From Methylophaga sp. OBS4 (GTDB taxonomy: Bacteria; Pseudomonadota; Gammaproteobacteria; Nitrosococcales; Methylophagaceae): DNA of 45,303 nucleotides. Below, in pieces: positions 5,234 to 25,135 of the stretch (the stretch's first letter is position 1; every line of letters starts with the position of its first letter). Made by a program: the position numbers and the translations under genes. The notes beneath the pieces were generated by a model. The model saw only the letters and a program-made list of their open reading frames with translations. It ran no database searches and was not told the origin of the DNA. Where the stretch lies: contig NZ_JAPDMV010000026.1 of assembly GCF_026319305.1 (NCBI RefSeq), forward strand, positions 1 through 45,303. The letters run 5' to 3'.

Positions 5234-6060
5234 AATATTGGTTACAGCGCAGCTTCAACTATCTGTTTCTCACCCTCGCAGCACTGCTGTTCCTGGCGCC
5301 GGTGGTGATGATGCTGGTCGGCAGCCTCAAGCCGGATCAGCAGGTATTCGTGGAAGCCGGCTCGCTGAGCGCCTTTATCCCCGGCGAGGCTTCGCTGGAC
5401 AATTATGCCGACGTCTTTGCCCGCAGTGACTTCCTGCGCTTTCTGTTCAATTCCCTGTTCATCACCGGCACCATCGTTATCGCCGGTCTGCTCGTCAACT
5501 CACTGGCCGCCTATGCCTTTGCCCGCCTGCAGTGGCGCGGGCGTGATTTGCTGTTCAACCTGGTGCTGGCACTGATGATCCTGCCGCTGGAAGCGATCGC
5601 CGTGCCACTATTCTACCAGGTGGCCGTGCTCGGCCTGCGCGATACCTACACGGCCCAGATCCTGCCGTTTATCGCTAATACCTTTGCCATCTATCTGTTC
5701 TACTCCTTCTTTATCGGCCTGCCGCGGGAACTGGAGGAAGCGGCGCGACTGGACGGCGCATCGACCTTGCGCATCTTCTTCAGCATCATTGTGCCCAACT
5801 CGAAACCGGTGTTCGCCAGTGTGACCATCCTGACCTTCCTGCTCTGGTGGGGTTCCTACCTATGGCCGCTGATGGTCACTATCGGCCCCGAAGTGCGGCC
5901 GTTGCCGGTAGCCATTGCCAGTTTCTACACCCTGCCGCCGCTCCAGTGGGGTGACATCCTCGCTTTCGGCGTGATGATGGTATCGCCGGTACTGCTGATC
6001 TTCCTGCTGTTCCAGCGCTGGTTCGTCCGCGGCGTGGCGGCATCGGCAATCAAGGGATAA
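5230..6060 (+). CDS. Sugar ABC transporter permease, MalG/UgpE type
   Basis: A 276-residue second permease of the carbohydrate uptake (CUT1) class. The EAA loop reads EEAARLDGASTLRIFF near residue 175. A hydrophobic first helix (about 11-32) and five more membrane segments are evident. GGAGGT lies just three bases before the ATG, inside the end of the previous gene. The ATPase gene starts four bases after the stop. It is expected to form a heterodimer with the preceding permease. Confidence 0.9.
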   Translation: MKYWLQRSFNYLFLTLAALLFLAPVVMMLVGSLKPDQQVFVEAGSLSAFIPGEASLDNYADVFARSDFLRFLFNSLFITGTIVIAGLLVNSLAAYAFARLQWRGRDLLFNLVLALMILPLEAIAVPLFYQVAVLGLRDTYTAQILPFIANTFAIYLFYSFFIGLPRELEEAARLDGASTLRIFFSIIVPNSKPVFASVTILTFLLWWGSYLWPLMVTIGPEVRPLPVAIASFYTLPPLQWGDILAFGVMMVSPVLLIFLLFQRWFVRGVAASAIKG

Positions 6061-13435: not shown

Positions 13436-14170
13436 ATGGATAATACCGATAAATTAGCGGTGCTCATTGATGCCGATAATGCCCAGCCCAGCATTGTGGA
13501 TGATCTGCTGGCAGAAATCGCCAATTACGGCGTCGCCAGCGTTAAGCGGATCTATGGCGACTGGACTTTACCCGGCCTTAAAGGTTGGAAGGAGGTGCTG
13601 CTGGAACATTCTATCCAGCCGATTCAGCAATTCGCCTACACCAAGGGCAAAAACGCCACCGACAGTGCCATGATTATCGATGCCATGGACTTGCTCTACA
13701 CCGGTAATTTCAATGGCTTCTGCATTGTTTCCAGTGATAGCGATTTTACCAAACTGGCATCGCGCATCAGGGAATCAGGGCTGACTGTATATGGCTTTGG
13801 CGAACAAAAAACGCCTTCCCCTTTCGTCTCAGCCTGCGACAAGTTCATCTATACCGAAGTGCTTCGCGCTAAAACGGATGAAAGCCAGGCCATAGAAAGA
13901 AAATCCAGCACGGAATTGCGGCAGGATACCAAACTGGTCAGCCTGTTACGCAACGCTATCGATGCTTCCTCAGATGAAAGCGGCTGGTCACAACTCGGCC
14001 CGGTCGGCAGCACTATTGCCAAACAAGCGCCCGAGTTTGACCCACGCAATTACGGCTACAAAAAATTGGGCGAATTAGTATTGGCGACAAAACTGTTTGA
14101 AGTGGAAGAAAGGCAAATAGGTGACTCGAACACAAAAGTTCTCTACGTAAGAGATAAACGCAGGAAATAA
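13436..14170 (+). CDS. NYN-domain putative ribonuclease with C-terminal OST-HTH/LOTUS domain
   Basis: A 244-residue protein. Residues 5-140 form a NYN (PIN-like) nuclease domain. The acidic metal-binding residues are D12 and D14 (LIDADN), D76 (KNATDSAM) and D101/D103 (SSDSDF). Residues about 165-235 form an OST-HTH/LOTUS domain, a fold that binds RNA, including G-quadruplex RNA. An RNA-cleaving or RNA-processing role is inferred. The sigma factor gene starts only 19 bp after its stop, so the two may be co-transcribed. The target RNA is unknown. Confidence 0.9.
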   Translation: MDNTDKLAVLIDADNAQPSIVDDLLAEIANYGVASVKRIYGDWTLPGLKGWKEVLLEHSIQPIQQFAYTKGKNATDSAMIIDAMDLLYTGNFNGFCIVSSDSDFTKLASRIRESGLTVYGFGEQKTPSPFVSACDKFIYTEVLRAKTDESQAIERKSSTELRQDTKLVSLLRNAIDASSDESGWSQLGPVGSTIAKQAPEFDPRNYGYKKLGELVLATKLFEVEERQIGDSNTKVLYVRDKRRK

Positions 14171-14189: not shown

Positions 14190-15416
14190 ATGAATGAATA
14201 TCTGGATACGCTCTACCAAACCGACTCCCGCCAGATTCTGGCAACGTTGATTCGGCTATTAGGGGATTTTGAGCTGGCAGAAGAAGCCATGCACGAGGCT
14301 TTTGCAGTGGCATTAACTAAATGGCCGGAACAAGGCATACCCGATAATCCTCGGGCCTGGCTGATTTCCACCGGGCGTTTTAAAGCCATCGATCAGCTCA
14401 GAAAACAAGCACGTTTTGATCATTCTCTGGACACGGTAGCCGATGAACTGGCCGCTGAAGAACCCGAAGTTAATGATGAGAATATTGAAGATGACCGGCT
14501 GCGTCTGATCTTTACCTGCTGTCACCCGGCGTTGTCGGTGGAGGCGCAACTGGCGTTGACCTTGCGTGAAGTCTGCGGCATGACCACAGAAGAAGTCGCC
14601 CATGCCTTTCTGATCAAACCGGCCACGGTGGCGCAGCGCATTGTACGGGCCAAGAACAAGATCCGTGATGCCGGTATTCCCTATGAAGTGCCCGAGCCAT
14701 CCCAATTTGCAGAACGTTTGCAAGCTGTGTTGCAGGTGATTTACCTGGTGTTCAACGAGGGTTATTCCGCTTCCAGCGGCGAAGCACTGACCCGCCATGA
14801 TTTATCAGCCGAAGCGATTCGCCTGGCCCGGCTGTTAATGCAGTTATTGCCGGAAGCTGAAGTGCAGGGTTTGCTGGCTTTATTATTGTTACAGGATTCA
14901 CGCCGCACTGCCCGCACCGATCAAAACGGCGATTTGATTGTATTGGAAGATCAGGACCGCAGCCTGTGGAACCGGGAGCAGATTCGCGAAGGCTGCGATT
15001 TGGTGCTGCAGGCCCTTTCCAGCCATCAGTTCGGACCGTTTACCTTGCAGGCGGCCATTGCCGCCGTACATGCAGAAGCACCTTCATCTGAAAAAACCGA
15101 CTGGCCGCAGATCGCCGGTTTATATAGCGCCTTGATGCAACACACACCTTCCCCCATTGTCGCATTGAACCACGCCGTAGCGCTTGCTATGTATCAGGGA
15201 CCGGAAGTCGGCTTGCAACTGATTGATGAACTTTTATCACGAGGCGAATTACAAAATTATCATCTGATTTATGCTGCCCGTGCCGATTTATGTCGCCGCC
15301 TGAATCGCCTTGATGAGGCCCGCGACGCTTACAAACTGGCACTCAAGCTGACGCAACAGGGAGCCGAGCAGCGTTATCTGCAACATCGTATTGAAGAATT
15401 AGCCGATAAATCATAA
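14190..15416 (+). CDS. ECF sigma factor, ECF42 group (DUF6596)
   Basis: A 408-residue RNA polymerase sigma factor. Region 2 lies at about 5-75 (DFELAEEAMHEAF, then PRAWLISTGRFKAIDQLR). Region 4 lies at about 105-160, preceded by the FTCCHPALS element. A long helical, TPR-like C-terminal extension (about 180-408) is typical of ECF42 and replaces an anti-sigma factor. Four small genes downstream include YCII/DGPF proteins, the known partners of ECF42. The ATG at 14190 has a poor ribosome site, and an in-frame ATG is not available nearby with a better one. Its own promoter is not evident. It may be read through from the NYN gene. Confidence 0.92.
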   Translation: MNEYLDTLYQTDSRQILATLIRLLGDFELAEEAMHEAFAVALTKWPEQGIPDNPRAWLISTGRFKAIDQLRKQARFDHSLDTVADELAAEEPEVNDENIEDDRLRLIFTCCHPALSVEAQLALTLREVCGMTTEEVAHAFLIKPATVAQRIVRAKNKIRDAGIPYEVPEPSQFAERLQAVLQVIYLVFNEGYSASSGEALTRHDLSAEAIRLARLLMQLLPEAEVQGLLALLLLQDSRRTARTDQNGDLIVLEDQDRSLWNREQIREGCDLVLQALSSHQFGPFTLQAAIAAVHAEAPSSEKTDWPQIAGLYSALMQHTPSPIVALNHAVALAMYQGPEVGLQLIDELLSRGELQNYHLIYAARADLCRRLNRLDEARDAYKLALKLTQQGAEQRYLQHRIEELADKS

Positions 15417-15448
15417 TGTTATAAAAAATTAATTTTTTTCGTCCCTCC

Positions 15449-15475
15449 TGTCGATTTTGCTGTTCCCCGTTCGAC
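15449..15475 (+). promoter_or_regulatory. ECF42-type promoter of the DGPF operon
   Basis: TGTCGA at 15449-15454 and CGAC at 15472-15475 are separated by 17 bp. From memory this is the -35/-10 pair reported for ECF42 sigma factors. It lies 35 bp before the first small gene, after the sigma gene stop. A 16-bp A/T palindrome (15423-15438) directly upstream could act as an UP element or as a weak terminator. Confidence 0.75.
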
Positions 15476-15510
15476 TATTTAAAGCCAACCACTTAGATAA
15501 GGAGAACATT

Positions 15511-15933
15511 ATGGACGCAAAAACAAGCATTCAAACTCAACTCGAAGCCTGGGCCCAGGCTGTTATCTCCCAGGACGTCGAACAAATCATGAGCCACTAT
15601 GCCGACCAGGTCCGCGCCTTTGATGCCGTCGGTCCGCTAGAATTCTCCGATCGTGACAGCTACAAGGCGCACTGGCAGAAATGCTTGTCCGGTTGCAGCC
15701 TGACCGCTTTCGAAGTCTCGGCTGTGGAAACTGAAGTCAATGACAATCTTGCAGTCTGCAGTTTTCTCAACCGCTGCGGTGGCAAGGATGAAAACGGCGA
15801 AGAAAAAGCCTGCTGGATGCGCGTCACGCAAGTGTATAAAAACCAGGATGGGCGCTGGCTGATCATTCATGAACACTTCTCACTGCCGTTCGATATGAAC
15901 ACCTGCGAAATTCAGTTCGATCTGCAACCGTAA
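15511..15933 (+). CDS. SnoaL-like / NTF2-fold protein
   Basis: A 140-residue single-domain protein of the SnoaL/DUF4440 type, recognised by its N-terminal helix-loop pattern (LEAWAQAVISQDVEQIMSHY) and the C-terminal strand DGRWLIIHEHFS. Members bind small hydrophobic ligands, and some are isomerases. The ATG at 15511 has AAGGAG six bases upstream. Translation from farther upstream would overlap the promoter. It is the first gene of the ECF42-linked operon. Its role there is unknown. Confidence 0.85.
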   Translation: MDAKTSIQTQLEAWAQAVISQDVEQIMSHYADQVRAFDAVGPLEFSDRDSYKAHWQKCLSGCSLTAFEVSAVETEVNDNLAVCSFLNRCGGKDENGEEKACWMRVTQVYKNQDGRWLIIHEHFSLPFDMNTCEIQFDLQP

Positions 15934-15944
15934 TAGAGGAGCCG

Positions 15945-16763
15945 ATGATGAAATTTATGATTATGCGGAAAGCGGACAGCAACACTGAAGCCGGTGTGAT
16001 GCCGACTAACGAGCAATTGTCCGATATGGCTGACTACAATACCGCCATGGCCGAGGCCGGGGTATTTGTGACCGGTGAAGGCCTTAAACCCAGCAAAAAA
16101 GGTTTCCGTATCAAATTTACCGATGGCAAGCCTGTTATCAGCGACGGCCCGTTTACCGAAACCAAGGAATTATTGGCCGGTTACACCATTATCGAAACCG
16201 GCTCCAAACAAGAAGCTTTGGACTGGGTCAAACGCTGGCCGGAAACCGATGTCGAATTGGAAATGCGCGAGGTATTCGAACTCAGTGACTTTGACGAAGG
16301 CGAAGGCCTGCAAAAGCACGTTGATTTGAATGAGACGCTGAAAAAACGCCCGGTTTCGATGTGTAACTACCTATTGTTCAACGGCAACTGCCGCGAAGCC
16401 TTCGAGTTTTACGCCGACCTGCTGGGCGGCGAAATTATGATGCTGCTGACCGGCGGCGAGTCGCCGATGAAGGACGACATGCCCGCCGAGATGCATGACA
16501 AAGTGATGCATGTCTGCCTTAAAGTCGGTAACTGGATGCTGATGGGATCGGACTGTCCGCCGGACATGTTTGAACAGCCACAGGGTTTTCATGTGCAGAT
16601 CGGCATGAATAACATCGAACAGGCCGAACAAACCTTTGACCGGCTGGCTGAAGGCGGCACGATACAGATGCCTTTCGAAAAAACATTCTGGGCTGAAAGA
16701 TTCGGCATAGTGGTCGATCGTTTCGGCACGCCGTGGATGATTAACTGCGCCCAGTGTATTTAG
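15945..16763 (+). CDS. YCII (DGPF)-VOC fusion protein
   Basis: A 272-residue fusion. Residues 1-115 are a YCII-related DGPF domain with the hallmark SDGPFTETKELLAGY. About 135-272 are a VOC domain of the PhnB-like type (CNYLLFNGNCREAFEFY). GAGGAG lies three bases before the first ATG and six before the second (15948), so either could be used, and the second is better spaced. DGPF proteins are the expected regulon of ECF42 sigma factors. Their chemistry is unknown, although YCII has been linked to dehalogenase or lyase-like folds. Confidence 0.88.
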   Translation: MMKFMIMRKADSNTEAGVMPTNEQLSDMADYNTAMAEAGVFVTGEGLKPSKKGFRIKFTDGKPVISDGPFTETKELLAGYTIIETGSKQEALDWVKRWPETDVELEMREVFELSDFDEGEGLQKHVDLNETLKKRPVSMCNYLLFNGNCREAFEFYADLLGGEIMMLLTGGESPMKDDMPAEMHDKVMHVCLKVGNWMLMGSDCPPDMFEQPQGFHVQIGMNNIEQAEQTFDRLAEGGTIQMPFEKTFWAERFGIVVDRFGTPWMINCAQCI

Positions 16764-16773
16764 GGGAGAAACG

Positions 16774-17157
16774 ATGAAATATCTGGCTCTGGTGTTTTAC
16801 CAGGAAAAAATCATGAACGGCATGTCGCAGCAGCAATGGGACAACTTGAACCAGGAATGCATGGCCTGCGGCGACAAGCTACGCGATAACGGCCATATGT
16901 TGGGCGGTAATGCCTTACAGTCGGTCGACACCGCGACCACCGTGCGGGTCCGCGACGGCAAACTGACGGTCACTGACGGCCCGTTTGCCGAAACCAAGGA
17001 ACAGCTGGCCGGTTATTATCTGCTGGAAGCCCGCGATATCAACGAAGCGATACAACTGGCGGGCAATATTCCGCCCGCCCGTTATGGCAGCATCGAAATA
17101 CGCCCGGTCAGGGAACTGCAGGAAATCGGCAATATCGCCGGTGGACGAGGTGGCTGA
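16774..17157 (+). CDS. YCII-family DGPF protein
   Basis: A 127-residue stand-alone DGPF domain. The signature VTDGPFAETKEQLAGYYLL is near residues 67-85 and closely matches the first half of the preceding fusion. AGGGGAG precedes the ATG. It starts 10 bp after the fusion gene, and the next gene follows after one base, so all are in one operon. Function unknown. Confidence 0.9.
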   Translation: MKYLALVFYQEKIMNGMSQQQWDNLNQECMACGDKLRDNGHMLGGNALQSVDTATTVRVRDGKLTVTDGPFAETKEQLAGYYLLEARDINEAIQLAGNIPPARYGSIEIRPVRELQEIGNIAGGRGG

Positions 17158-17158
17158 G

Positions 17159-17629
17159 ATGCAAAAAATTACCCCGTGTTTATGGTTCGATAATCATGCC
17201 GAACAGGCTGTCGACTTTTACCTGTCGGTATTTAACGATAGCCGCATTATCAGTCAGATGTATTACGGCGAGGTCGGTCCCGGCCCGGACGGCTCGGTAT
17301 TGTCAATTGATTTTCAGCTGGAAGGTCAGGACTTTATCGCCCTAAACGGCGGTCCTTATTTCGAGTTCAATCCGGCCATTTCGCTGTTTGTAAACTGCGA
17401 GACACAGGATGAAATTGACCGGCTTTGGGCTGCACTGCTGACCGGCGGTGGCAAAACCCAACAATGCGGCTGGGTACAGGATCAGTTTGGCGTATCCTGG
17501 CAGATTGTACCTACCGTTCTCGGTGAGATGCTGCGAGACAGCGATAAAGCGCGATCGCAACGGGTCATGGCCGTATTGTTGCAGATGAACAAACTAGATA
17601 TTGCAGCTTTAAAACAAGCATATGGTTAG
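17159..17629 (+). CDS. VOC family protein, PhnB-like
   Basis: A 156-residue VOC (glyoxalase fold) protein of the PhnB/3-demethylubiquinone methyltransferase-like type. It opens with ITPCLWFDNHAEQAVDFY and contains the WQIVPTVLGEML end common to these proteins. GAGG eight bases upstream supports the ATG at 17159. The open frame extends further upstream but runs across the previous gene. It is the last gene of the ECF42-linked operon. Confidence 0.88.
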   Translation: MQKITPCLWFDNHAEQAVDFYLSVFNDSRIISQMYYGEVGPGPDGSVLSIDFQLEGQDFIALNGGPYFEFNPAISLFVNCETQDEIDRLWAALLTGGGKTQQCGWVQDQFGVSWQIVPTVLGEMLRDSDKARSQRVMAVLLQMNKLDIAALKQAYG

Positions 17630-24589: not shown

Positions 24590-25135
24590 ATGAAAACCAG
24601 TATCTATATTGCGACCAGTGTAGATGGTTTTATCGCCAGGGAAAATGGCGAACTTGACTGGCTGCCTACTCTGGAAGAAGCAATAAACAATGAAGATTAC
24701 GGTTACCATGATTTCATCACTTCCGTAGATGCCCTGGTCATGGGGCGTAATACCTATGAGTCAGTCCGTGCTTTTGGTGCCTGGCCTTATGAGAAGAAAC
24801 CGGTGTTTGTACTCACCAATCAGCCCATTGACATTCCGGACGAGCTGACCGGCATGATCGAGTCGCTGACAGCTTCACCGGAAGAAGTGATCCGGCAACT
24901 GAGCCAGCGCGGCTTTCACCATCTTTATATTGATGGTGGTAAAACTATTCAGAACTTTCTTATCGCTGGTTTAATCAATCAATTGATTATTACCCGGGTG
25001 CCCATCCTGATAGGCAGCGGTATCCCGCTGTTCGGCACATTGCCGGGCGATATCAAACTCCGCAATATCAAAACCAGGCATTTCAGCAACGGCTTGGTTC
25101 AGACTAACTACGAAGTGCTGCGTCCGGCACCGTGA
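24590..25135 (+). CDS. Dihydrofolate reductase-fold protein (RibD C-terminal type)
   Basis: A 181-residue protein of the YyaP/RibD-C group. Characteristic blocks are SVDGFIA near the start, VMGRNTYE, YIDGGKTIQNFL and PILIGSGIPLFG. It has a DHFR fold and probably binds NADPH, but true folate reduction is not indicated. It is the third gene of the run. Function unknown. Confidence 0.88.
   Translation: MKTSIYIATSVDGFIARENGELDWLPTLEEAINNEDYGYHDFITSVDALVMGRNTYESVRAFGAWPYEKKPVFVLTNQPIDIPDELTGMIESLTASPEEVIRQLSQRGFHHLYIDGGKTIQNFLIAGLINQLIITRVPILIGSGIPLFGTLPGDIKLRNIKTRHFSNGLVQTNYEVLRPAP

Follow-up and report, generated by a model that had tools for sequence, protein, structure and literature searches.

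A predicted ECF42 target operon with a YCII-VOC fusion gene behind its sigma factor gene in Methylophaga sp. OBS4

Which genes are served by a promoter-like site that lies between a sigma factor gene and the four small genes behind it? The question is raised by a 45,303-nucleotide (nt) stretch of Methylophaga sp. OBS4 (contig NZ_JAPDMV010000026.1, our C22), referred to here as the window, which belongs to a draft assembly of 2.55 Mb with a completeness of 83.55%. In this window, a gene for a sigma factor of the extracytoplasmic function (ECF) type ECF42 is followed by genes for a SnoaL-like protein, a fusion of YCII and VOC domains, a stand-alone YCII protein and a VOC-fold protein (Table 1). 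The motif TGTCGATTTTGCTGTTCCCCGTTCGAC occupies positions 15449-15475 between them, with a spacer of exactly 17 nt and with TA directly behind it. A first-pass annotation of the sequence had read TGTCGA-N17-CGAC at this place, and both its coordinates and its spacer proved right. The gene identities, the predicted promoter and its placement before the operon rather than before the sigma gene are supported by the comparisons given below, and we consider it highly probable that an ECF42 sigma factor with a directly controlled four-gene operon explains the locus as a whole.

String counting gave no proof of a promoter. The pattern TGTCGA-N14..20-CGAC matched twice in the window versus 0.42 expected, and 9 of 100 shuffles contained as many matches. 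Over the whole genome there were 19 such strings versus 30 for the reversed control, and a tighter pattern matched 17 times versus 37 control matches (12 of the 37 in one genome) over the 24 Methylophaga genomes of our genus sample, which consisted of strain OBS4 (G000) and 23 others. Genome-wide counting was rejected as promoter proof because it showed no excess over reversed controls, and the evidence for the promoter therefore rests on position and conservation. Two of the 19 strings were located outside open reading frames (ORFs) of at least 100 amino acids (aa), namely the window site and a site before a RibD-like gene.

Conservation was assessed in 80 related loci from many phyla, the best 80 of 593 confirmed sigma relatives. 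Recognisable YCII, SnoaL or VOC genes, which were taken as the target set, occurred in 74 of these loci (YCII in 74, SnoaL in 29 and YjdN-type VOC in 18). Before these genes, TGTCGN-N16/17-CGWC was found in 73 of 174 regions and in 63 of the 74 loci, versus a mean of 1.68 regions and a maximum of 13 for 359 permuted motifs. In narrower upstream regions the spacer was 17 nt in 54 regions and 16 nt in 9, and none had a spacer of 14, 15 or 18 nt. The extended consensus of 61 spacer-17 sites comprised TGTCGA, T/A-rich positions 7-9, C19, C20, R21, CGAC, T28 (0.82) and A29 (0.97). On a matrix of 59 sites from which Methylophaga was left out, the window site scored 37.9 bits, and leave-one-out scores ranged from 15.2 to 38.2 bits (median, 31.4). 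No other site above 10.0 bits was present in the 248,996 positions of the genome that were scanned (overlapping stretches covering part of it), and no second match of at least 10 bits was present in the window, so that none precedes the sigma gene. It is because of this comparative enrichment, and not of the string alone, that the window site exceeds chance, and a chance origin of 15449-15475 would be very unlikely. Directly upstream of the sigma gene (350 nt searched), one of the 80 loci has the motif, with a mean of 0.64 and a maximum of 7 for the controls. In that locus (L064, Pseudomonas guryensis) it is located at 5888-5914, 56 nt before the likely sigma start, where self-activation is possible. 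A TGTCGA-type string was also seen somewhere in the 3.3 kb of 14 of 29 further loci from the search of the phylum sample (398 genomes), which were kept out of the counts.

The sigma ORF matched Sigma70_r2 (PF04542, E 8e-10), Sigma70_r4_2 (PF08281, E 4.4e-9) and, at residues 176-275, DUF6596 (E 1.8e-37) in Pfam, thereby confirming the ECF42 region 4 and C-terminal extension named in the first-pass annotation; TPR hits remained under the Pfam cut-off. Its AlphaFold2 model had a mean predicted local distance difference test score (pLDDT) of 83.9 over the whole protein and was all helical at residues 170-407, and TPR structures headed the fold matches (best E 1.1e-3, none at E≤0.001). Sigma identity was 59-70% in an alignment of the window and 48 of the 80 related loci. 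The ECF42 traits present are the sigma2 and sigma4 domains with a C-terminal extension of about 200 residues of TPR character, two YCII domains directly downstream, as expected from the YCII genes of the related loci, and a TGTCGA-type -35 element with a CGA/TC-type -10 element. A sigma tree of 55 rows was poorly resolved and included no named experimental ECF42 reference, and the assignment therefore rests on domains, neighbours, promoter and identity, which support membership of ECF42. ECF41 (SigJ type), in which SnoaL_2 is fused to the sigma C-terminus, was rejected: the sigma ORF had no SnoaL hit, SnoaL is encoded by a separate gene, and the SigJ model gave 33.6 bits versus a cut-off of 271. 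PA1351 is presumably an ECF42 factor as well and was not used as evidence. DUF6596 was found in 91 of the 398 genomes of the phylum sample. In a published count, 30% of 16,854 prokaryotic genomes have it, 97% of its copies being part of sigma70 proteins (PMC11119718), and the TPR-rich extension of ECF42 factors has been described as essential for activity (PMC8999054).

All four products of the operon have solved relatives (3f7s, 1s7i, 1u6l and 1u69), the names of which give no function. Four genes behind the sigma gene, two of them with DGPF signatures, had been annotated from the outset; the coordinates were confirmed, as were the signatures DGPFTETKE in the fusion and DGPFAETKE in the stand-alone YCII protein. 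Gaps inside the operon measure 11, 10 and 1 nt. A longer SnoaL ORF with a TTG start at 15457 would overlap the promoter. The protein families concerned often bind or convert small molecules. Most likely, the products bind or convert a small hydrophobic or reactive molecule; that they form a protective or detoxifying set is a guess with moderate support. The strongest competing view is that the YCII, VOC or SnoaL products are feedback partners and not pathway enzymes, turning the sigma factor on or off by binding to its TPR-like extension. A role of YCII in ECF42 regulation has been proposed on the grounds of its constant presence nearby and of its fusion to certain ECF sigma factors (PMC8999054), and the predominance of YCII over SnoaL and YjdN-type VOC among the 80 loci (74 versus 29 and 18) agrees with such a role. 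Against it, the motif also heads genes for VOC, AHSA1, DUF1428 and DUF1579 proteins in other loci, which looks like a varied set of enzymes and ligand-binding proteins and not like one dedicated partner. There were 92 motif-ORF pairs, 20 of which had no match to a query family; six of these 20 were scanned with Pfam, and several others look like chance. We regard the feedback role as unlikely, at perhaps one chance in a handful or slightly better.

Within the genus sample, DUF6596 was present in 8 of the 24 genomes (strain OBS4 and seven others), and in all eight loci the motif preceded SnoaL or its remnant. The full fusion gene was found in 6 of the 24 and its YCII half in G018, all among the eight genomes with DUF6596. 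All four target genes are present in G000, G012, G016, G017 and G020; the stretch from G007 ends before the last operon gene, and the operons of G018 and G021 are partial. In G007, G017 and G021 (L116, L117 and L120), 3-4 kb with a large HAMP-like and a pilin-like gene (named by eye) on the opposite strand separate the sigma gene or its remnant from the operon, and it is the operon, not the sigma gene, that has kept the motif in front of it. To judge from this separation, the promoter is part of the operon. The sigma frame is broken in G020 (L118), G018 (L119) and G021 (L120), perhaps by decay or assembly error, and the operon promoter is still recognisable there.

These loci also bear on the view that all five genes form an ordinary operon transcribed from a housekeeping promoter upstream of the NYN-LOTUS gene or of the sigma gene, to which the motif adds little. 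The gap of 19 nt between the NYN-LOTUS and sigma genes and the absence of a terminator-like site between sigma and SnoaL speak for it. However, one simple transcript is not expected where opposite-strand genes lie between sigma gene and operon, as in the three genomes above, and in G402, a genome of our class sample (369 genomes), the motif directly precedes the fusion gene, 2.2 kb past the sigma gene end. We therefore hold an ordinary operon to be improbable. Least credible of all, and hardly worth retaining, is that the motif is a chance match or a site of another sigma factor: strings of this kind are fewer in the genome than those of the reversed control, but site, spacing and position are conserved across phyla and in eight of eight genus loci, and among the 19 strings only the window and RibD sites are outside long ORFs.

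In the explanation favoured here, transcription of the sigma gene in this layout would not depend on a promoter of the type that its product recognises, and the gene would probably be cotranscribed with those immediately before it; the NYN-LOTUS gene region is a possible source of constitutive sigma transcription. The DUF6596/TPR-like extension may hold the sigma factor idle or tune it, sensing a signal or a partner protein. Active sigma factor would direct RNA polymerase to TGTCGA-N17-CGACTA at 15449-15477, and a single mRNA with a short leader, with a predicted start near 15481-15485, would encode the SnoaL-like, YCII-VOC, YCII and VOC proteins.

The closest described counterpart is Sinorhizobium meliloti RpoE10, an ECF42 factor with TGTCGG-N17-CGTC promoters before glyoxalase-like and hydrophobic-ligand-binding genes (PMC6180224). 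Overexpression of RpoE10 raised such promoter-bearing genes and not the YCII gene cotranscribed with rpoE10, and RpoE10 was reported not to activate itself (PMC6180224), which is not a strict rule of the group. RpoE10 and its targets (SMc01149-SMc01148 and SMb20475-SMb20474) resemble the window in the TPR extension, the YCII neighbour, the promoter core and the spacer of 17 nt; they differ in having the YCII gene ahead of rpoE10 and CGTC as the -10 element, whereas in the window the targets follow the sigma gene and the -10 element is CGAC. The ECF42 factors of Streptomyces venezuelae (Sven_0747 and others) have a similar TPR-rich extension, a likeness drawn from their description only (PMC8999054). 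In Pseudomonas putida NBRC 14671 (L086), SnoaL and YCII genes are present, the motif precedes SnoaL (which matched 3f7s over 141 residues with 319 bits) and the sigma factor is 63% identical; unlike in the window, the targets are upstream of the sigma gene, with a gap of 506 nt, and the stretch retrieved for this locus yielded neither a VOC nor a fusion gene. We take L086 to be the locus of the P. putida ECF-10 orthologue. Nearest in order is Candidatus Krumholzibacteriota RA.bin123 (L036), in which a sigma gene with a product 67-68% identical is followed by the motif, SnoaL, the YCII-VOC fusion and YCII in the same order; it differs in that no VOC gene was detected behind YCII.

Several observations weigh against the explanation by a directly controlled operon. 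The stretch 15417-15510 yielded no terminator-like site, and transcripts of the sigma gene may thus run on into the operon. The 80 loci are the closest relatives and partly akin to each other, which makes their counts non-independent, and the motif was absent from the searched regions in 11 of the 74 loci with targets. Motif-headed targets lie downstream of the sigma gene, as in the window, in 34 of the 63 motif-bearing loci, and upstream of it in the other 29; in 17 of these 29 (L041, L062, L089 and 14 others) the sigma ORF starts at most 60 nt after the last target, and the sigma gene may share the target transcript there. A similar motif overlaps the start site of the S. meliloti YCII-rpoE10 transcript (PMC6180224), and together with the target-first loci this leaves room for self-activation in other members of the group. 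On the 27-nt matrix built from these loci, the two S. meliloti RpoE10 promoters reached 2.1 and 5.7 bits, which indicates that the likeness is one of core and spacing and not of the whole site, and that the matrix is not universal. As to the extension, the papers disagree about a bound partner: one is undecided between activation and inactivation, and another proposes suppression of ECF42 sigma factors. Because of the 17 loci, the proposition that ECF42 sigma genes are never under a promoter of their own type was rejected. The original claim that the promoter drives the operon and not the sigma gene thus stands, by computation, for the sigma-first layout and falls as a group rule; within that layout, to which we limit it, predicted service of the operon alone is supported. 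Likewise, of the five-gene order compared across the loci, the succession of SnoaL, fusion and YCII recurred in L036, and the leading position of the sigma gene was not general.

A further claim, that the layout was undescribed, needs to be narrowed. YCII genes are known to adjoin ECF42 sigma factors (PMC8999054) and glyoxalase-like targets are known for RpoE10 (PMC6180224), so that ECF42, its YCII neighbours and the promoter type are already in print. No paper came up in a literature search that paired ECF or sigma factors either with DGPF or with the trio of SnoaL, YCII and glyoxalase, the primary ECF42 papers being outside its scope, and the exact four-gene set may be unreported in the literature searched. 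The uncommon part is the fusion gene. YCII and VOC were fused in two loci of the 80 (L035, L036). A YjdN-type VOC is present in 16 further loci, where the two domains were separate ORFs, at most 150 nt apart or overlapping in 15 of the 16 (ORF starts taken farthest upstream). The fusion protein had matches at E≤1e-20 in 28 of the 369 class genomes; in this sample, G402 has, besides the window, a whole fusion without stops, and G121 has YCII and VOC as adjacent genes. The split form is seen in L148 (G121), where an ECF42-like sigma end and two promoter motifs are followed by YCII, YCII, YCII, VOC, SRPBCC-like and VOC genes (named by eye). No single origin of the fusion-bearing loci was apparent in the sigma tree (three changes, weak support). 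NCBIfam YjdN gave 84.9 bits on the fusion protein, under its cut-off of 122, and a structure model of the fusion was poor (pLDDT 56.6) and was left unused.

Scanning the genome for TGTCGA sites, which had been put forward as a way to list the regulon, left the window site as the only strong one in the stretches scored. The second site, TGTCGA-N17-CGACTA at 93970-93998 of contig C47 (core 93970-93996), is followed after 40 nt by the start codon ATG of a RibD_C gene, but this gene was rejected as a sure regulon member, with 10.0 bits versus a leave-one-out 10% mark of 22.5. None of the other 23 genus genomes gave a full-length match to the RibD_C protein, the match in G002 being weak and partial; RibD-like genes occur in 3 of the 80 ECF42 loci, and window positions 24731-25042 have weak similarity to the RibD_C protein of C47 (E 3.8e-5). 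The gene lies in an integron-like array (L191 3510-5252, about 93.0-94.75 kb of C47) of genes on one strand parted by attC-like repeats, the order being a TIR-domain gene, a small gene, a short interval in which no ORF reaches 70 aa, and the RibD_C gene. Two 54-nt copies of the repeat are 85% alike and fold as single strands with z scores of -3.75 and -2.62, similar repeat ends are visible by eye at L191 3510-3553 and 5165-5252, and the folding of L191 5177-5296 does not surpass that of shuffles (z -0.95). Our own attC scan was discarded as unspecific, Rfam gave no matches on L191, and no integrase was noticed in the 10 kb read around the array, of which the ORFs were partly scanned, the genome not being searched for one. 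That an integron-type cassette brought its own alternative-sigma promoter and so joined the ECF42 regulon, to be switched by the resident sigma factor, seems a long shot. In two other Methylophaga genomes, G001 and G017, an AHSA1 gene is motif-headed (28.5 and 24.6 bits; L183 1501-1529 and L196 1363-1391), which indicates that the regulon varies from species to species. A search of strain OBS4 gave no relative of the AHSA1 gene. The sigma gene of G017 is uninterrupted, and G001 (55% complete) had no sigma match.

Table 1. Features of the sigma factor locus in window coordinates.
Feature	Position	Strand	Basis and remarks
NYN-LOTUS gene (nuclease-like NYN + LOTUS)	13436..14170	+	Pfam NYN and OST-HTH; ends 19 nt upstream of sigma
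ECF42-type sigma factor gene	14190..15416	+	408 aa; Pfam, locus alignment, AlphaFold2 model, fold matches
Predicted -35 element TGTCGA	15449..15454	+	Sequence, comparative enrichment, matrix score of whole site
Predicted -10 element CGAC, extended CGACTA	15472..15477	+	Sequence; after CGAC T 0.82, A 0.97 in 61 sites
Probable ribosome-binding site AGGAG of SnoaL gene	15500..15504	+	Sequence; precedes ATG 15511
SnoaL_3/NTF2-like gene, operon gene 1	15511..15933	+	ATG start; Pfam 1.4e-15; nearest solved structure 3f7s 6.1e-32
YCII (DGPF) fused to YjdN/PhnB-type VOC	15945..16763	+	Pfam; profile matches 1s7i, 1u6l; 7-row alignment
Stand-alone YCII (DGPF) gene	16774..17157	+	Pfam 3.9e-19; 1s7i 1.4e-35
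3-dmu-9_3-mt gene (VOC fold, PhnB-like)	17159..17629	+	Pfam 2.5e-48; 1u69 6.9e-36

As a whole, a promoter guessed by eye has become one supported by comparison across phyla, and the extended consensus TGTCGAWWT ... CCR ... CGACTA is usable for listing ECF42 targets. The fusion gene suggests that two widespread, uncharacterised families act together. A methylotroph that, judged by the motif, has one strong target operon would make a simple system for studying the signal and the chemistry of ECF42.

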